This document shows positions 2,791 to 18,895 of a stretch of 20,439 nucleotides of DNA, in pieces. This stretch comes from a virus: IMG/VR virus record IMGVR_UViG_3300024358_000073, positions 1-20,439 of that record, one strand, 5' to 3'. The position numbers were made by a program, and so were the translations under genes. The notes below the pieces were generated by a model. The model was not told the origin of the DNA. It saw only the letters and a list, made by a program, of their open reading frames with translations, and did no database searches. Position 1 is the first letter of the stretch, and each line of letters starts with the position of its first letter.

Positions 2791-3114
2791 TTGTCTAAAT
2801 TAGGCAATCTCGGCAACAATAAGACAGCCTACGCTGATGGCGATGGCGGACTAATTATTGAGACTAAAGTAGACCTTAGCGACTTTATCGCTGAGACACA
2901 AGCTCAATATAAGAATAGAAGTGGTAGCACAGGATGGGGAGATAACCCACTTGATGAACGCAATAAGATTGCTACCATACCACCTGAAATCATAGAAGAC
3001 TTGAATCGTAAAGGCATCATGCGTGGCTACTTTATCGTAGACGAGCCAGCCATGAAGCGATGGTTAAACGACCCGATTAATCAAGTATTCCGTACTAGGG
3101 GTGGAAAAGTTTGA
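2791..3114 (+). CDS. Capsid-proximal conserved protein, function unknown
   Basis: With the TTG start at 2791 the product is 107 residues (SKLGNLGNNKTAYADGDGG after Met). An upstream in-frame GTG (2752) would lie within the terminator stem and add 13 residues of unlikely sequence, so I reject it. The C-terminal half (NKIATIPPEIIEDLNRKGIM, about residues 60-79, then GYFIVDEPAMKRWLNDP and a final FRTRGGKV) is a conserved pattern I associate with small proteins found next to SU10-type capsid genes. No catalytic motif, signal or membrane segment is seen. It may be a minor head or decoration protein, judged only from position. Its stop overlaps the next start (TTGA). Confidence 0.7.
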   Translation: MSKLGNLGNNKTAYADGDGGLIIETKVDLSDFIAETQAQYKNRSGSTGWGDNPLDERNKIATIPPEIIEDLNRKGIMRGYFIVDEPAMKRWLNDPINQVFRTRGGKV

Positions 3115-3737
3115 AAACAGTTGCTATTTGCATACCTGCTAGAGGGCAGATGGAAGTAGGAACTGCTTTTGATTTAGCTCGGATGGTCAATCATGTAGCC
3201 CGAAAAGGTGAAATACAGGTCAATCTGTATACATCTATGGGAACTCTGATATTTGACCAAAGAAACAATATGGTGGAATCAGCCCTAGAAGAAGGTGCTG
3301 ATTATGTGCTTTTTATAGATGCAGATATGCGCTTTCCAAAAGATACGCTAGAAAGGCTTATATCGCACGATAAGGGCATTGTTGGGGTTAATGCTACTAC
3401 TAGGTCAGTTCCAGTAAAAGCGACTGCCAAGCACCTTATAATCGATTCTGATGGCACTTGTAATTGGAAACAGATTAGCTCTAAGAATAAGACAGGTTTA
3501 CAGATGGCTGATGGTATCGGCTGTGGGGTCATGTTAATTAGCAGAGAAACCCTAGAAAAGATAGAGAAACCTTGGTTCTTTTTTGAGTTATTACCTGAAA
3601 ACAAGCTATTAGGCGAAGATATTTACTTCTGTGTCAAAGCTAAAGATGTAGGAATTGACACATTTATAGACCATGATTTATCACAAGAGATAGGTCATGT
3701 TGGCTCATACACTTACGGATGGCATGACATATCATGA
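3111..3737 (+). CDS. GT-A fold glycosyltransferase (GT2/Anp1-like)
   Basis: 208 residues from a TTG start that overlaps the previous stop. The N-terminus AICIPARGQ is the first beta strand of a nucleotide-sugar-binding Rossmann-like fold. VLFIDADMRF (67-76) carries the DxD metal-binding motif D70-A-D72. GVNATTRSVPVKA (92-104) follows as in related phage enzymes, and a GED motif (169-171) and a late GHVGS (195-199) provide the likely catalytic acid and metal-binding His. It should transfer a sugar from an activated donor, cytosolically during infection. It lies between head and adaptor genes, so a virion protein is a plausible acceptor, but DNA or a host glycan cannot be excluded. Donor and acceptor cannot be read from the sequence. 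Confidence 0.8.
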   Translation: MKTVAICIPARGQMEVGTAFDLARMVNHVARKGEIQVNLYTSMGTLIFDQRNNMVESALEEGADYVLFIDADMRFPKDTLERLISHDKGIVGVNATTRSVPVKATAKHLIIDSDGTCNWKQISSKNKTGLQMADGIGCGVMLISRETLEKIEKPWFFFELLPENKLLGEDIYFCVKAKDVGIDTFIDHDLSQEIGHVGSYTYGWHDIS

Positions 3738-4354
3738 GTTTTACTAACTATTCAGCACTACAGACTACGATAGCTAACTATCTAGGTAGAACTGACTTAA
3801 CCAGTCAGATTCCTACTTTTATCCAGTTGGCTGAAACTCGACTAGCTCGACAGTTGCGTACTCGCTTGATGCTCAAGTCTGCGACTGCGACCATGACAGG
3901 TGGCGATAATCGTGTAGCTGTGCCAACTGACTTCATGGAATTACGGGATTTACATATCCAAGGCAACCCTAGGATTCCTGTGACTTATCTGTCTCCTAGC
4001 AATTTCACAAGAAATGCTAGGGCAGAGGAGTCGGGAAGACCTGTGTTTTATACAGTATTGCAGACAGAGTTTGAGTTTGCGCCTATTCCTGATGATGCGT
4101 ATGTGTTAGAGATTCTTTACTATGCAAAGCCAGCTTTACTAAGTGGTTCTAATACATCGAATGTATTTTTGGCTAACTATCCTGATGCTTTACTTTATGG
4201 CTCTTTGATGGAAGCCGAGCCTTACCTGATTAACGATGCAAGAGTTCAGCTTTGGGCTTCTATGTACGACAGAGCAGTCACTAACATCAATGATTCTGAC
4301 GAAAACTCAGAATATTCAGGTGTACCATTAACAATGAAATTAGCTACTCAATAA
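3734..4354 (+). CDS. Head-tail adaptor protein (SU10/gp4-like)
   Basis: 206 residues, started by an ATGA overlap with the glycosyltransferase. The N-terminus MSFTNYSALQTTIANYLGR and the segment IPTFIQLAETRLARQLRTR are highly typical of SU10-type adaptor proteins, helical proteins that ring the base of the portal and provide the platform for tail assembly. VAVPTDFMELRDL, GRPVFYTV and EFAPIPDDAYVLEILYY continue the family pattern in order. The C-terminal helix (YPDALLYGSLMEAEPYL...) matches the portal-contacting helix. Position directly upstream of tail genes supports the assignment. Confidence 0.82.
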   Translation: MSFTNYSALQTTIANYLGRTDLTSQIPTFIQLAETRLARQLRTRLMLKSATATMTGGDNRVAVPTDFMELRDLHIQGNPRIPVTYLSPSNFTRNARAEESGRPVFYTVLQTEFEFAPIPDDAYVLEILYYAKPALLSGSNTSNVFLANYPDALLYGSLMEAEPYLINDARVQLWASMYDRAVTNINDSDENSEYSGVPLTMKLATQ

Positions 4355-4363
4355 GGATTAATC

Positions 4364-4750
4364 ATGGCTGAAATGTCAAATTATTTGGAAAATGCGCTAA
4401 TTAACGCAACTCTCCGCAACACAGCTTATACAAGCCCTTCTACTGTTTATGTCGGTCTGTTTACTTCTGACCCTACAGATGCAGGTTCAGGCACAGAGGT
4501 ATCAGGTGGCTCTTATGCTCGTGTAGCAGTAACTTTTGGCGCACCTTCTAATGGCGCTTCAACAAACTCTGCTGCAGTTGAATTCCCACAGGCTACAGGC
4601 GATTGGGGAACAATCACCCATATCGGTATCTTGGATGCAAGTTCAAGCGGTAATTTGTTGTATCACACAGCTTTGGATAACTCTAAGGTTATTCAGACTG
4701 GTGATATTTTTAAAATCGCAACAGGTAACCTGAGCGTTACCCTTGCCTAA
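4364..4750 (+). CDS. Small beta-rich virion protein of a widespread phage family
   Basis: 128 residues. The sequence begins with a short helix (MSNYLENALINATL) and then 'TAYTSPSTVYVGLFTSDPTD', 'GGSYARVAVTFGAPSN', 'VEFPQATGDWGTITHIGI' and 'GNLLYHTALDNSKVIQTGD', ending GNLSVTLA. I recognise this as a common tailed-phage structural protein often annotated as a tail or minor structural protein; the exact role is not known to me. It is Thr/Ser/Gly-rich, without Cys, and looks all-beta after the first helix. TAAGGATT supplies the ribosome binding site before ATG 4364. The next gene's ATG uses the last A of its TAA stop. Confidence 0.75.
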   Translation: MAEMSNYLENALINATLRNTAYTSPSTVYVGLFTSDPTDAGSGTEVSGGSYARVAVTFGAPSNGASTNSAAVEFPQATGDWGTITHIGILDASSSGNLLYHTALDNSKVIQTGDIFKIATGNLSVTLA

Positions 4751-5712
4751 TGCCATTAACACTAGAGCAGTTAGACCAATTTGGTAGCCTAGATGACTTA
4801 CAGTATTCGCTAGACCTAGATTGGTACGAAGATAGGGTTACAGGCAACTGGACACTAGAAGCCATAGATGCTATTGGCTCTATTGACAGTATCAACCTGT
4901 CTTTAGATAGCCCATATTGGAATGGTCTAACTGTTTATTTCTACAACCCAGCAAGTGTAACAGCCAATGCAAGTGTTGTTGCAGATGCCTACAGAGAGCG
5001 TAATGCTTCAGGCTCAATCACAGGAAATGCGACTGTAACTGCAACACCTACAAGAATCCTATTCTTCTCAGGTGCTATTACTGCTAACGCTCAGGTTGAA
5101 GGCTACGCAAACGCTATATTTGGTGGCACAGGCTCGATTACGAGCAATGCTACTGTATCGGCTAACGGAATAAGAATAAGAGAATCTAGTGGCTCTATAA
5201 CAGGTTTAGCGACTGTTTCTGCAATAGCCTATAGAGAGTTGTTTGGTGCAGGTGCTATTACAGGGTTTGCAACAGTTACAGCCAATGGTGCTAGGGTATT
5301 ATCAGGCTCAGGGTCAATTACATCTTCTGCAACAGTTACAGCAGATTCAGTAAGAATCAGGACAGGAAGTGGAAATGTTAATGGATTATGCACAGTTACA
5401 GCGCTTGGTGGAGTCGAATATTCGGGTACAGCAGATATTAGCGCAATCGCAACAGTATCTTGCACAGCAAATGCAGTATTCTCAGCATCTAGCGCAATTG
5501 TATGTACAGGCACTATTACTTGTTTAGGCAATATCATTGGAGACAACTGGACTCCTGAAACACCTGAAACAGAGTCTTGGGCAGATGTAACACCTGAGAA
5601 TCCTAACTGGACAGAAATACCAGCTAGTAACGATTCTTGGACACAGATAGCAGCAAGCACAGGGACATGGAATCAAGTTCCTAGCAACAATAATTCATGG
5701 GTGAATAATTAA
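4750..5712 (+). CDS. Repeat-built virion protein (20-aa beta repeats plus 10-aa Trp repeats)
   Basis: 320 residues with three kinds of internal repeat. Residues 4-22 (TLEQLDQFGSLDDLQYSLD) recur at 35-53 (TLEAIDAIGSIDSINLSLD). Residues ~71-260 are about nine and a half tandem repeats of exactly 20 residues, consensus T-[GS]-x-A-T-V-[TS]-A-x-x-x-R-x-x-x-x-[SG]-G-[SA]-I, with no insertions. The tail has six Trp residues at 267, 277, 287, 297, 307 and 317, each in S/N-W-T-x-I/V-type units. There is no signal peptide and no enzyme motif. It sits between the adaptor region and the nozzle gene, so it is most likely a tail or appendage component; a beta-solenoid-like fold for the 20-aa repeats is inference. 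I do not recognise a named family. Confidence 0.75.
   Translation: MPLTLEQLDQFGSLDDLQYSLDLDWYEDRVTGNWTLEAIDAIGSIDSINLSLDSPYWNGLTVYFYNPASVTANASVVADAYRERNASGSITGNATVTATPTRILFFSGAITANAQVEGYANAIFGGTGSITSNATVSANGIRIRESSGSITGLATVSAIAYRELFGAGAITGFATVTANGARVLSGSGSITSSATVTADSVRIRTGSGNVNGLCTVTALGGVEYSGTADISAIATVSCTANAVFSASSAIVCTGTITCLGNIIGDNWTPETPETESWADVTPENPNWTEIPASNDSWTQIAASTGTWNQVPSNNNSWVNN
4960..5529 (+). repeat. Nine and a half in-frame 60-bp coding repeats
   Basis: Codes for the 20-residue repeats (protein residues 71-260). Blocks begin TANASVV, TGNATVT, TANAQVE, TSNATVS, TGLATVS, TGFATVT, TSSATVT, NGLCTVT, SAIATVS and VCTGTIT, each exactly 60 bases after the last. DNA copies have diverged, but pieces such as GCAACAGTTACAGC are shared between copies. 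Confidence 0.9.
5545..5709 (+). repeat. 30-bp coding periodicity placing Trp every 10 residues
   Basis: TGG codons fall at protein residues 267, 277, 287, 297, 307 and 317, each preceded by Ser, Asn or Thr and often followed by T-x-[IV]-x-A/P-S. The array runs to the stop codon and begins directly after the 20-aa repeats end. Confidence 0.88.
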
Positions 5713-7161
5713 ATGGCAAACCAAAGAATAACTTTCGGAGAATGGCTACCTGACCAACCGTCGGTCACAGGTGCATTAATGGCAGCTAATAATGTTTACT
5801 CTAGAGCTATTGGCTATGGTGGTATTCCTTTGGCAGTCGATTACTCACAAAATGCTTCTGAGCCACTAAACAATGTGGTGGCTGGTAAAAACCCTGATGG
5901 AAGCACTACAGTATTCGCAGGAAGTCAGACTAATCTATACAAGCTAGACTCTACTGATATGACTCTAGATGATGTATCAGGCACTACTTACGCTACTCCT
6001 GTAGACCAAAGATGGCGCTTTACACAGTTTGGCAACAGAATTATTGCTGCTAACGGATATGACAAATTACAGGGTTGGCTACTAGGAACTTCGACTGCTT
6101 TTGCAGATTTAGCTGCTGATGCGCCTACTGCTCGGTATGTCACAGTAGTTCGAGACTTTGTGGTTTCAGGACATATCGGTACTGCTTACCCATTTAGAGT
6201 CCAATGGTCAGGCATTAACAATGAGACATCTTGGACTCCTAGTGCTACGACACAGGCTGACTTCCAAGAGATTCCTGATGGTGGCTCTATCGTAGGTGTT
6301 ACAGGTGGTGAATTTGGTCTAATCTTGATGGATAGGTCAATCTATCGCATGACTTATGTCGGTAGCCCATTGGTATTCCAGTTTGACAATATCTCAAGAA
6401 ATCTAGGTTGCTACGAAGCTAATTCAGTTATCCAGTATCAGGGTACGACTTTCTTCCTAGCAGACGATGGTTTCTATGCCTGTGATGGACAGACTGTAGT
6501 GTCAATCGGTGGCGAAAAGGTAGACAGATACTTCTTTAAGGATGTAGACGAAGAATACCTGTTCAATATGTCTGCTGCTATCGACCCTATTAAAAACCTA
6601 GTTATTTGGGCTTATGCGTCTAAAGGGCAAGGTGGAAATGTCAATAAGTTATTGATTTATAACTTCCAAACTAAGAGATGGTCTAGTGGCACTACCAATG
6701 TAACTAAGGTAGCTTCAGCTTCTAGCCCTTCTACAACTTTAGAGGGTTTAGATGCTATTTCTGCTTCTATTGATGCCCTAGGAACTAGCTTTGACTCTCG
6801 CATTTGGCTAGGTGGAAAACTGCTATTTGCAGGGGTCAGAGGAAATAAAATTGTTACATTTACAGGACAGAATTCTACTGCTACAATTCAGACAGGAGAA
6901 TTGTCTCTTGAAAATCGTAAGTCAGCAGTTACTCTTGTTCAGCCTATTGTTGATAATGGTTCTTGTAATGTAGCTGTGTTTTCTAGGGACTTGCTTACGA
7001 CTCAGATTATTTTTGGGTCATCAACCGCAGCAAATTCAGAAAATAGGGTTTCATTGAGAAGCATGGGAAGATACCACTCATTGCAGTTTACCCCTACAGG
7101 CGATAATTGGAATTCAATTATCGGTGCTGATGTAGAACTCGTGCCTATGGGTGGTCGCTAA
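5713..7161 (+). CDS. Tail nozzle / packaged-DNA stabilisation protein (P22 gp10-like)
   Basis: 482 residues, beta-rich, with the family pattern I associate with SU10/P22-type nozzle proteins: an N-terminal 'FGEWLPDQPSVTGALMAANN-VY' segment, 'DGSTTVFAGSQTNLYKLD', 'RWRFTQFGNRIIAANGYDK', 'VVRDFVVSGHI', 'RVQWSGINNETSWTPS' and 'FFLADDGFYACDG'. The repeated short beta strands fit a beta-propeller. Such proteins form the hexameric bottom of the short tail, closing the DNA channel and carrying fibres. It starts one base after the previous stop and its own stop overlaps the next ATG. Length is in the usual 450-500 range. Confidence 0.8.
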   Translation: MANQRITFGEWLPDQPSVTGALMAANNVYSRAIGYGGIPLAVDYSQNASEPLNNVVAGKNPDGSTTVFAGSQTNLYKLDSTDMTLDDVSGTTYATPVDQRWRFTQFGNRIIAANGYDKLQGWLLGTSTAFADLAADAPTARYVTVVRDFVVSGHIGTAYPFRVQWSGINNETSWTPSATTQADFQEIPDGGSIVGVTGGEFGLILMDRSIYRMTYVGSPLVFQFDNISRNLGCYEANSVIQYQGTTFFLADDGFYACDGQTVVSIGGEKVDRYFFKDVDEEYLFNMSAAIDPIKNLVIWAYASKGQGGNVNKLLIYNFQTKRWSSGTTNVTKVASASSPSTTLEGLDAISASIDALGTSFDSRIWLGGKLLFAGVRGNKIVTFTGQNSTATIQTGELSLENRKSAVTLVQPIVDNGSCNVAVFSRDLLTTQIIFGSSTAANSENRVSLRSMGRYHSLQFTPTGDNWNSIIGADVELVPMGGR

Positions 7162-14067: not shown

Positions 14068-16482
14068 ATGTCAGTTATTCGTAATGAATTACTACTTGCA
14101 GGTGATGATGCCTACAACATTCAGCGTAGCTTGCGATTCCGTAGAAGTGCTAGTGCTAATTTAAGCCGAACACCGGCTAGTGCTGGAAATCGCAAAACAT
14201 ATACTTGGAGTGGTTGGGTTAAAAGAGGAAGCCTAGGTTCTGGTCAAGTTTTATTAAGCGCCGAAAATGGAACAGGAAATTACACTGTCTATCAATTTAA
14301 CAGTAGCGACCAATTAGAGGCTCACAATTCGGTGTCAGGTGTGGGTGGGTCAAACTTTGCCACAACTGCCGTTTTTCGAGACCCGTCTGCTTGGTATCAT
14401 ATCGTTTTACAAGTTGATACGACACAAGCGACTGCCGCTAATAGAGTTCGACTCTATGTAAACAATGTTTTGCAAACATGGGGAACAACGGGTAGCACTG
14501 CTTGGGATTTAAATAGAGACACTTGGGTAGACAATACAAATATCCACTATCAAGGGCAAAACCCTATTTTTGGTGGAAACTTTTTCGACGGATACCTAGC
14601 CGAAGTAAACTTCATCGACGGTCAAGCGCTAACCCCATCATCCTTTGGTCAAAACAATGCTCAAACAGGAGTATGGCAACCAAAGAAATACACAGGAACT
14701 TATGGTACTAATGGCTTTTATCTACCATTTACAAATAACTCTACAACTACAACACTAGGCAATGACTTTAGTGGTAATGGTAATAACTGGACTACTAATA
14801 ATATCAGTCTATCTAGCGGTGCTACTTACGACAGTATGACTGATGTGCCGACTTTGACAAGTGCGACACAGGCTAATTATTCTGTAATGAACCCTTTAGA
14901 TGAGGGCGCATCAGGTTCAACTATATCTAATGGCAATTTGACAGTAGCTACTGCTAGTACAGGCTTTCGATATATGGGTAACACCATTTGGCCTACTAGC
15001 GGTAAGTTTTATGCTGAGTTCACTTTGACTGCCACTAGCGGATTTGCTCAAGTAGGCATTGCAACAACAACTACAAATTCCAATAAGATACTAGGTCAAG
15101 ACTCTACTTCTTGGTCTTATAACTCATGGAATGGTACTAGCTCTAATAACAATTCTGCGTCAACTTTTGGTAATTCATGGACTACCAATGATGTAATTGG
15201 TATTGCTTTAGATAAAGATACTAATAAACTTTATTTTAGTAAGAATGGTACTTGGCAAAACTCAGCAGACCCAGCCGCAGGCACAGGTTCTATCAGTATT
15301 TCAAGTATTGCTGGTATTCCTACTCTAATTGGTGTTTGTGATAATGATAATGGTGGCTCTGCTACATTCCAAGCCAACTTCGGACAACGCCCATTCGCAT
15401 ACACACCCCCAACAGGATTTGTAGCATTAAATACTTTTAACCTACCTACTCCTACTATTGGTGCTACTGCATCTACACAGGCTAATAAGTATTTTGATAT
15501 TAGTCTTTATACAGGTAACAGCGGAAGTCAGACAGTTACTAATAGTGGCTCAATGCAACCCGATTTAGTATGGATTAAGTCTAGGAATGTGGGTGGTAAC
15601 AACCATAATTTATGGGATTCTGTTAGAGGTGCTGGTAAGGCTTTAATTAGCAACCTTACAGATTCAGAATACACAGCCAATAATATGACTGGGTTTGTGT
15701 CTAATGGATTCACATTTAGCGGAGTCGCATTAGATAGTAATACTACTGGAAATAACTTAGTCGCTTGGCAATGGAACGCTGGGGGTAGCACAGTAACAAA
15801 CACTTCAGGCTCTATCAGCTCTCAGGTTCGTGCGAATCAGAGTGCTGGATTTAGTATTGTTACTTATACAAGCAATAACACTGGTGGTGCTACTGTAGGG
15901 CATGGTTTAGGTGTTAGACCTTCAATGATTATTTTAAAAAGAAGGTCAGCAGTTAGTGATTGGGACACATACCATATCAGCCTTGGTGCAACAAGAGGTA
16001 TTGCCTTAAATACAACAGCCGCAGCTGTAACAAACAGTAACTATTGGAATAATACAGAACCAACATCAACTGTATTTACATTGGGTGCTGGTGTGAATCC
16101 AGCTTCAACAACAATGGTAGCCTACTGCTTTTCCGAAGTCGCTGGCTATTCAAGATTCACTTCATATACTGGTAATGGTAGCTCTGATGGAACTTTCTGT
16201 CATTTAGGCTTCCGCCCTCGCTTTGTAATGATTAAGAATTCATCAGCCACTGGTGCTTGGATTATGTATGATACAGCTAGGGATACATCTAATGTTGTTG
16301 ATTTAATTCTTGAAGCTCAATCATCAAGTGCAGAGGGTAGTGGAAGCCCATTCGCAGATATAGACTTTTTATCTAATGGATTTAAGATTAGAGGAACTAG
16401 CTCTGCAATCAATACAAGTGGGAATACTTATGTAGTAGCCGCTTTTGCGGAAAACCCTTTTAAATACAGCTTGGGTCGTTAA
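14068..16482 (+). CDS. Large tail fibre: LamG-like, SPRY-like and triplicated C-terminal domains
   Basis: 804 residues. Residues ~44-195 form a LamG/concanavalin-like lectin domain (TYTWSGWVKRG, WYHIVLQVDTT, VRLYVNNV, FFDGYLAEVNFIDGQALTP). Residues ~285-445 resemble SPRY (GKFYAEFTLT, VGIATTT, VIGIALDKDTNKLYFSKNGTW, ANFGQRPF). Residues ~476-798 comprise three tandem copies of one module: each has a Y-T-x-N-G/T start, a G/P-x-x-x-V/I-I-K strand and an F-x-S-N-G-F or related segment, ending with V-A-x-x-F/W. I recognise this C-terminal type from phage fibres (DUF7483-like). The whole is an extracellular carbohydrate-binding candidate and the most probable host-range determinant. No signal peptide. 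Ends with an ENPF segment. Starts nine bases after the preceding stop with a TAAAGGA ribosome binding site. Confidence 0.8.
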   Translation: MSVIRNELLLAGDDAYNIQRSLRFRRSASANLSRTPASAGNRKTYTWSGWVKRGSLGSGQVLLSAENGTGNYTVYQFNSSDQLEAHNSVSGVGGSNFATTAVFRDPSAWYHIVLQVDTTQATAANRVRLYVNNVLQTWGTTGSTAWDLNRDTWVDNTNIHYQGQNPIFGGNFFDGYLAEVNFIDGQALTPSSFGQNNAQTGVWQPKKYTGTYGTNGFYLPFTNNSTTTTLGNDFSGNGNNWTTNNISLSSGATYDSMTDVPTLTSATQANYSVMNPLDEGASGSTISNGNLTVATASTGFRYMGNTIWPTSGKFYAEFTLTATSGFAQVGIATTTTNSNKILGQDSTSWSYNSWNGTSSNNNSASTFGNSWTTNDVIGIALDKDTNKLYFSKNGTWQNSADPAAGTGSISISSIAGIPTLIGVCDNDNGGSATFQANFGQRPFAYTPPTGFVALNTFNLPTPTIGATASTQANKYFDISLYTGNSGSQTVTNSGSMQPDLVWIKSRNVGGNNHNLWDSVRGAGKALISNLTDSEYTANNMTGFVSNGFTFSGVALDSNTTGNNLVAWQWNAGGSTVTNTSGSISSQVRANQSAGFSIVTYTSNNTGGATVGHGLGVRPSMIILKRRSAVSDWDTYHISLGATRGIALNTTAAAVTNSNYWNNTEPTSTVFTLGAGVNPASTTMVAYCFSEVAGYSRFTSYTGNGSSDGTFCHLGFRPRFVMIKNSSATGAWIMYDTARDTSNVVDLILEAQSSSAEGSGSPFADIDFLSNGFKIRGTSSAINTSGNTYVVAAFAENPFKYSLGR

Positions 16483-17214: not shown

Positions 17215-17654
17215 GAGCAATCCTATTTATACTTTCAATGATGCTAGGTGGATTCCTAGCATTTTTTTTATCTGACTCTCAGGCTCAACCGATAGTCACA
17301 GAATCTACTGCTCGTACAAAAGTAGAATCTCCACCACCTAGTGCTATATCTCCTAATATCACTACTATTAACAATCGAGTCTGTTCTACAGGGGTATCTG
17401 CTGCGATTCAAACACAGATTCTAGGTTTCTCTACAGGAACTACAGTACGAGACGCTAATTGCGAATTAGTCCTATTGGCTGAGACTCTGTTCAATATGCA
17501 GATGAAAACTGCTGCAGTCACCATTCTTTGCCAAGACAATCGTGTATTTTGGGCTATGTGGAACGCTGGTACATTCTGCCCGATTGATGGAAAAGTGGGA
17601 CTGGAAGCTAAGGTTGTTTGGGAAAACTCCGAAAAACTACCTAAAAAGCCATGA
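17211..17654 (+). CDS. Small secreted or membrane-anchored Cys-containing phage protein
   Basis: I place the start at ATG 17211 (ATGA overlap with the 57-residue gene), not the TTG 45 bases upstream, because it gives an ideal signal-like N-terminus: RAILFILSMMLGGFLAFFLS (2-21), then SQAQ where cleavage could occur. The 147-residue product has a Pro/Ser/Thr linker and four Cys (58, 84, 107, 123) suitable for two disulfides, in a region with QTQILGFSTGTTVRDANCEL and an aromatic segment VFWAMWNAGTFCP. I recognise it as a phage-type protein but cannot name a function. The codons for residues 11-20 also form a strong transcription terminator (see 17241-17269). Its stop overlaps the next ATG. Confidence 0.72.
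   Translation: MRAILFILSMMLGGFLAFFLSDSQAQPIVTESTARTKVESPPPSAISPNITTINNRVCSTGVSAAIQTQILGFSTGTTVRDANCELVLLAETLFNMQMKTAAVTILCQDNRVFWAMWNAGTFCPIDGKVGLEAKVVWENSEKLPKKP
17241..17269 (+). terminator. Intrinsic terminator inside a coding sequence
   Basis: ATGCTAGG (17241-17248), loop TGGATT (17249-17254), CCTAGCAT (17255-17262), then T through 17269 (eight T in total, one shared with the stem). The 8-bp stem is perfectly paired, and a further G-T wobble is possible outside. It starts 30 bases after ATG 17211 and encodes residues 11-20 of that protein, so it can act only when ribosomes do not cover it. Confidence 0.7.
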
Positions 17655-18895
17655 AGTTACTGCTAATACTGTTGTTTTTTTGCAACACTATCAGCGCCCA
17701 AGTAAGAACCCATAATATCTCAGACGATGGCTATGCCCATGTCCCATTGCAATTTCCGTTTCCTTTGCATGGTAGGGTTTTTACTGATTCGTTTATGTAT
17801 TCCAATGGAGTCGTAGGATTTGGCTCTGTAAACAATCATTGGTGCTGTTCAGGCTACGATTTAGCAACCAGTAGTGGGTATCAGTTCAACTACTCAATAA
17901 TGGGCTTACAGACCGATTTAATCAATTATGGAAGTGGTCGGTTTTTATCAGAGGGAACTCCACAGTATCAGAGGTATATGTGGGAAAACATTTCTGAATA
18001 TGGCCGACCTAATAACCTAAACACCTTTGGAATTGAGATTAGACCTAGTGGCTCTATCTCTATGCATTACAACCAAGTCAATCTTGATAGACCTTTTACC
18101 ATCGGGATAACTGGAGATACGACTAGAGGTGAATATACGCAGTATCGCTTTCAGAACGGATTGAGGACTTCTGAGCCTTTTAGTTACTCATACAATGGTA
18201 ACTTATGCGTTACTAATCCATTGTCTAGTCCTAGTTGTCCTAACTACCAAGAAGCCTACGATGCTCAACAATGCGCTTTAAACGCTCTGTATCGACCTTC
18301 TTGTGCTGGGTATGAACAAGCCTACTTCCAACAGCAATGTAGCCTTAATCCACTTTATAACAGCCAATGCACAGGTTATGCACAGGCTTACTTTGACCAA
18401 CAATGTCGATTAAATGGGTTATACGACAGGACTTGTCCTAACTATGCAGAAGCCTATGCCGAGCAACAAGTTACTAGACCAGTTGCATCAGTACCACAAG
18501 TTCAGACCAGTTTTACAGGAGAAGTGACAGTTTCTACTCCTGTGATTGCAGACCCTATTGTTAATACTGTGGTGACAAGAAATGCTCAAACGACAAATAG
18601 TGTGCAAAGAAATACTGAGCCTGTTAGCGAGAAAAAGGTTGAAACTAAAACTTCAGCCAAGAAAGAAACCGAAACAAAGAAGTCAGCACCACCTACTAAT
18701 ACTGCGAGCAAGGATGATAGCCCGAAGGTTGTAGATACTTTTAAGTACGAGCAACCATTGGTATTAGACCCAAATTACAGAAAAATGGTAAGTAAACCTA
18801 TTAGAGACAATGGTCGTGGTTTGTATTACCTAACGATTACTAGCGATAAACTTCATAGGGAATTAATAGATGAGCAATATAGAAAAAGAGATTAG
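17651..18895 (+). CDS. Secreted nidogen-like domain protein with four 22-aa Cys repeats
   Basis: 414 residues. Signal peptide KLLLILLFFCNTISA, cleavage likely before Gln17. Residues ~25-180 resemble a nidogen (NIDO)-type beta domain: FPLHGRVFTDSFMYSNGVVG, MGLQTDLIN, NTFGIEIRPSGSISMHYNQV, FTIGITGD. Residues 186-273 are four exact 22-residue repeats, C-x9-C-x11, with N-P/A/G-L-Y, G/N-Y-x-x-A-Y and Q-Q positions. Residues ~275-370 are a Thr/Lys/Glu linker, and the final 40 residues (YRKMVSKPIR, YYLTITSDKLHRELIDEQY) are charged and helical. It is thus periplasmic or surface exposed; whether it is made during infection to modify the envelope or is a virion part is unknown. The start overlaps the previous gene (ATGA) and the next gene begins 26 bases before its stop. 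Confidence 0.7.
   Translation: MKLLLILLFFCNTISAQVRTHNISDDGYAHVPLQFPFPLHGRVFTDSFMYSNGVVGFGSVNNHWCCSGYDLATSSGYQFNYSIMGLQTDLINYGSGRFLSEGTPQYQRYMWENISEYGRPNNLNTFGIEIRPSGSISMHYNQVNLDRPFTIGITGDTTRGEYTQYRFQNGLRTSEPFSYSYNGNLCVTNPLSSPSCPNYQEAYDAQQCALNALYRPSCAGYEQAYFQQQCSLNPLYNSQCTGYAQAYFDQQCRLNGLYDRTCPNYAEAYAEQQVTRPVASVPQVQTSFTGEVTVSTPVIADPIVNTVVTRNAQTTNSVQRNTEPVSEKKVETKTSAKKETETKKSAPPTNTASKDDSPKVVDTFKYEQPLVLDPNYRKMVSKPIRDNGRGLYYLTITSDKLHRELIDEQYRKRD
18206..18469 (+). repeat. Four in-frame 66-bp repeats encoding C-x9-C-x11 units
   Basis: Cys codons fall at protein residues 186, 196, 208, 218, 230, 240, 252 and 262, alternating 10 and 12 residues apart. Each unit includes a [NA]-x-L-Y/S segment, a second Cys, a Y-x-x-A-Y motif and a terminal QQ. 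DNA copies are diverged from each other. Confidence 0.88.

Follow-up and report, generated by a model that had tools for sequence, protein, structure and literature searches.

A period-ten tryptophan array at the C-terminus of a putative beaded-appendage thread protein in environmental podoviruses

What role might a viral protein play whose last six tryptophans lie exactly ten residues apart? The question is raised by a 320-residue open reading frame (ORF) at positions 4750–5712 (+ strand) of the window, that is, the whole 20,439-nucleotide stretch analysed here (IMG/VR virus record IMGVR_UViG_3300024358_000073). On the basis of its translation and its relatives, we refer to the product as the Trp-array protein, a putative rope-like chain within a beaded appendage of the tail. 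Translation placed its Trp residues at 25, 34, 57, 267, 277, 287, 297, 307 and 317, bearing out the six C-terminal positions given in a sequence-only reading of the same DNA. The codons of these six lie at 5548–5700, within a C-terminal array (5548–5709, + strand) recognised from translation, period statistics and relatives, and three residues separate W317 from the stop. A motif S/N/T-W-T/N-x-I/V had also been proposed around each Trp; its first position holds, with S/N/T preceding 6/6 Trp, while the remainder holds in part, T/N following only 4/6 and I/V occupying +3 in 4/5. The 20-residue array said to precede the Trp residues was recovered by autocorrelation, with signals at lags 20 and 40 only within the tested range, as exactly ten repeats (residues 61–260; 4930–5529, + strand) with the repeat sequence S-I-T-x-x-A-T-V, probably beta-rich to judge from a weak profile match and low-confidence models. 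The N-terminal segment (residues 1–60; 4750–4929, + strand) proved lineage-specific upon alignment; it carries two L-D-x-L...S-L-D motifs and could possibly act as a virion anchor.

By counting, six Trp distributed over the final 64 residues adopt an exact period of 10 in 14 of 7.5e7 placements, and the pattern appeared in 0/200,000 shuffles. At the nucleotide level, TGG-N27 repeated five times has two occurrences in the window and none in 100 shuffles. A 30-bp tandem repeat is absent from the window DNA under the array, indicating that the period is maintained at the protein level. Pfam and PHROG scans of the Trp-array protein and its Trp module yielded nothing usable, a PDB profile search with the module returned chance matches only, and the protein had no PDB match. 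As the earlier reading had it, then, the array is unexplained by existing annotation, with no Pfam or PHROG family covering it. AlphaFold modelled the full protein at a pLDDT of 41; in two low-confidence models each 20-residue repeat contains two strands, and no strands are assigned in the Trp array, at a pLDDT of only about 43–67.

We surveyed IMG/VR for similar arrays by two routes. A scan for six TGG at 30-base steps, which is biased to proteins with six or more Trp, returned at least 120 stretches; among the matches listed, about 50 C-terminal arrays were left once simple repeats and frame artefacts had been removed, in dissimilar repeat proteins of roughly 180–660 residues. Because of this bias, frequencies were taken from loci sampled without it, fetched via the neighbouring nozzle and gp80 genes. 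These neighbour-sampled loci contain 101 distinct ORFs that end in three or more Trp at period 10, and none that end so at periods 6–9 or 11–15; W-x9-W arrays thus do recur in other phages. Counting back from the last Trp, a Trp is found at −10, −20, −30, −40 and −50 in 62, 62, 56, 50 and 51 of 81 genes, respectively, and almost nowhere else. The array stops 1–4 residues from the C-terminus, rarely up to about 12. Among the matches listed (274 ORFs in 85 clusters at 60% identity, the biased scan included), run lengths are six in 163, four in 75, two in 26 and three in 10, and runs of five, or of seven and above, never occur. A strictly even number of Trp was considered and rejected, given the 3-Trp clade. 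Full-length IMG/VR relatives of the 320-residue protein all keep six Trp. Spacing that drifts among relatives had been named as grounds for abandoning a constraint; relatives keep period 10, and the constraint stands. The Trp array is therefore real, conserved and unannotated.

Aligned units from the array relatives give the consensus T-W-T-x-V/I-S followed by a polar S/D/T/E turn, and the terminal units (first and last) are unlike the interior units, as expected of caps. Named carriers of the array include Methylophilales phage Venkman (four Trp; short-tailed by TEM, PMC8163748), several Manatee Spring genomes and phage C72C1. Variants were also seen: in one clade (loci L205–L212) an insertion that includes a Y/W-rich stretch breaks the array ahead of the last two Trp, in L238 the second Trp of a six-unit array is replaced by Tyr with spacing kept, and in Sinorhizobium phage phiM5 a Tyr stands one step ahead of the first Trp. 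The TGG scan additionally caught two unrelated proteins (L107 and L135) with dense W-x4 (GGxW-like) repeats. A search of bacterial genomes for prophage relatives of one array member found none.

The genes around the array point to a tail structure. In the window they run from an SU10-type capsid protein through a head-to-tail adaptor (3734–4354, + strand; match to the SU10_adaptor family) and a gp80-family protein, corresponding to the fiber I bead of phage GP4 (4364–4750, + strand; Pfam PF23140, E 4e-54; PDB 8jou_a, E 9e-14), to the Trp-array gene and, directly downstream, the tail nozzle (5713–7161, + strand; phrog_3287, PDB 9nwi_Y and VP1 nozzle 8zkm_E). The gp80 stop codon and the Trp-array start codon share one base, and a relative's gp80 matches 8jou_a in Foldseek (E 1e-5). 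Across these SU10/GP4-like podoviruses, the order adaptor/gp80, Trp gene, nozzle recurs in nearly every array locus whose flanks are long enough to show it, fibre genes being inserted in some of them. When nozzle-sampled loci with an adaptor as well as a nozzle were tallied, 40 had gp80 together with the array and 14 had neither, with one locus having the array only and none gp80 only (Fisher p 3e-12). In a wider set, about 13 array loci have no recognisable gp80, its slot being taken by a different small protein, and for this reason a strict rule confining the array to gp80-bearing loci was relaxed. Where tested, the substitutes belong to phrog_644, phrog_8123 or phrog_3758; hhalign profile comparison, covering eight of them and the phrog_644-type group, revealed no relation to gp80. 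In PaP3, KLEP18-1 and two Rhizobium phages the nozzle gene directly follows the tail gene before it, and nothing comparable is encoded in between. An AlphaFold model of a relative's gp80 fused by read-through to its Trp-array protein docked the two without confidence. Between the capsid and adaptor genes of the window lies a glycosyltransferase-like ORF (3111–3737; weak Anp1/GT2-like match), with homologues in the same slot of many related loci.

Fiber I of GP4, the subject of a 2023 study by Zheng and co-workers, reportedly consists of five gp80 dimers joined by an elongated rope protein. PF23140 is named 'Podophage GP4 fiber I protein', and entry 8jou, titled 'Fiber I and fiber-tail-adaptor of phage GP4', contains ten gp80 chains, a count paralleled by the ten repeats of the Trp-array protein. 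Passages of PMC10925440 and PMC11784390 cite the GP4 study (Zheng et al. 2023). Like GP4, the window has the bead family in the slot after the adaptor. A long repeat protein stands directly beside gp80 in the window, and the same layout is found in BcepIL02, JC1, Itty13 and POI1126. For example, GP4-like Lessievirus and Itty13-type phages have a protein of ~285 residues after gp80 with about 10–11 repeats of 20–25 residues, and in BcepIL02 the ~285-residue repeat protein is followed by the gp77 fiber-tail adaptor. In contrast, the C-termini of these rope-like proteins lack a period-10 Trp array, and the Trp-array protein compares with BcepIL02 gp56 only at a BLAST E of 0.014 and an hhalign probability of 0.7%. 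Two Lessievirus rope-like proteins (L388 and L393) end in R-x-L-R-V motifs at intervals of about nine residues, which may form a comparable strip. The gp77 adaptor family (PF23148) had no match in the 17 window proteins scanned, possibly owing to divergence or an incomplete window. Virion proteomics of JC1 lists the gp80 and gp77 homologues and does not list the rope-like gp54 (PMC9144972).

Other systems offer partial parallels. Zobellviridae proteins MEP401 gp59 and CRP-4 gp54 have similar repeats (BLAST E 4e-10 for MEP401) and a Trp-bearing C-terminus, and the CRP-4 gp54 gene follows a gp80 homologue, but their Trp spacing is 13 (MEP401) or 13 and 15 (CRP-4) and their context differs. Foldseek detects the gp80 fold in the neck of Bas63 (9mt4) and in that of Sf14 (9c39_K). 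The neck whiskers of Shigella phage Sf14 are dimers in which one chain threads through two whiskers (PMC11821841); unlike the phages discussed here, Sf14 and Bas63 are contractile-tailed myophages, and the threading chain is one of Sf14's own whisker proteins.

Its position and architecture make the Trp-array protein a candidate for the rope, and it may well be the thread of a GP4 fiber-I-type beaded, whisker-like tail appendage, a reading to which we give an even chance. As homology to rope-like proteins went undetected and gp54 is missing from the JC1 list, we infer this identity indirectly. The 20-residue beta repeats would form the shaft that carries gp80 dimers, with the array probably a new C-terminal variant on a known kind of appendage thread. 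A recurrent ending in dozens of dissimilar phages, at one tail-gene position, looks like a conserved docking strip, which may bind another tail protein, one of the functions first suggested. The unit consensus with its polar turn would suit short strands binding along a repetitive surface. We postulate that each 10-residue unit could form one such strand, its Trp locked into a single pocket on a partner surface made of repeated pockets, whose spacing the fixed step would match. Units numbering two, three, four or six with unchanged spacing make a closed globular domain unlikely and favour a modular strip. The partner would most likely belong to the virion, the candidates being the beads and the tail neck, which are preferred over a host receptor because the Trp are strictly kept. 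More tentatively, the strip might represent an undescribed docking code common to the tail appendages of many podoviruses, with one partner subunit per 10-residue step and the number of Trp (mostly two, four or six) counting or registering subunits at the thread end.

The array might instead lie at the appendage's distal end as an exposed ladder of aromatic residues binding host glycans or another receptor, with the remainder of the protein as stalk. Such a tip would be C-terminal and polar apart from its Trp, as the array is, and would differ between lineages, as do the C-termini compared here (Trp period 10 in the window, 13 in MEP401, none in Lessievirus). Divergence cuts both ways: between the window and L005–L011, identity is 41–45% in the array, 59–64% in the repeats and 84–88% in gp80, so that the non-Trp array positions, the fastest-changing of those compared, outpace the repeats and, by a wide margin, gp80, whereas the Trp themselves are unchanged among the window's close relatives and receptor tips usually diversify or swap. 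Furthermore, dN is below dS in the array for all pairs with a defined value, the same array occurs in phages with dissimilar repeat proteins, and the carbohydrate-binding ladder envisaged in the sequence-only reading drew no Pfam match to a carbohydrate-binding family for the protein or its relatives. We regard a receptor-binding tip as rather unlikely.

The sequence-only reading had also envisaged the solenoid continuing through the array, in which case 20-residue coils would carry two Trp each on opposite faces, perhaps in a trimer. The array period (10) is half the repeat period (20), even unit numbers (two, four and six) predominate, and L163 (six Trp) and L153 (four Trp) are apparently one protein differing by a 20-residue pair. 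The repeats weakly match the beta-helix putative adhesins 4opw (E 2e-4), 3ljy and 3jx8, a profile similarity that may be compositional, and these are cellular proteins without a Trp array. The 3-Trp clade, however, does not fit coils of two, interior odd and even units show no significant difference (p about 0.08), the S-I-T-x-x-A-T-V sequence stops before the array, and AlphaFold, at low confidence, predicted no secondary structure there. A continuing solenoid thus appears improbable. As for a low-complexity linker of no specific role, its spacing left by a single duplication event, the T/S/N/D/E-rich, fast-drifting non-Trp positions are what it would lead one to expect, but period and Trp identity hold across the 85 clusters and the window array has no DNA-level repeats; we consider it very improbable. 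A docking strip at the end of an appendage thread provides our preferred framework.

The C-terminal W-x9 repeat provides a sequence signature for an unannotated class of tail proteins. The class spans a large set of podoviruses from the environment, one of which is a cultured phage that infects marine methylotrophs. If the thread reading is correct, the signature would predict which phages carry GP4-like beaded appendages, and the array is a clear target for structural and mutational work on thread assembly. Elsewhere in the window, the ORF at 17651–18895 has no Pfam match and contains Cys-rich tandem repeats of about 20 residues in mid-protein (C-x-L-N-x-L-Y...C...Y-x-x-A-Y-x-x-Q-Q), and the ORF at 14068–16482 encodes an 804-residue fibre-like protein with SPRY and DUF7483 domains.
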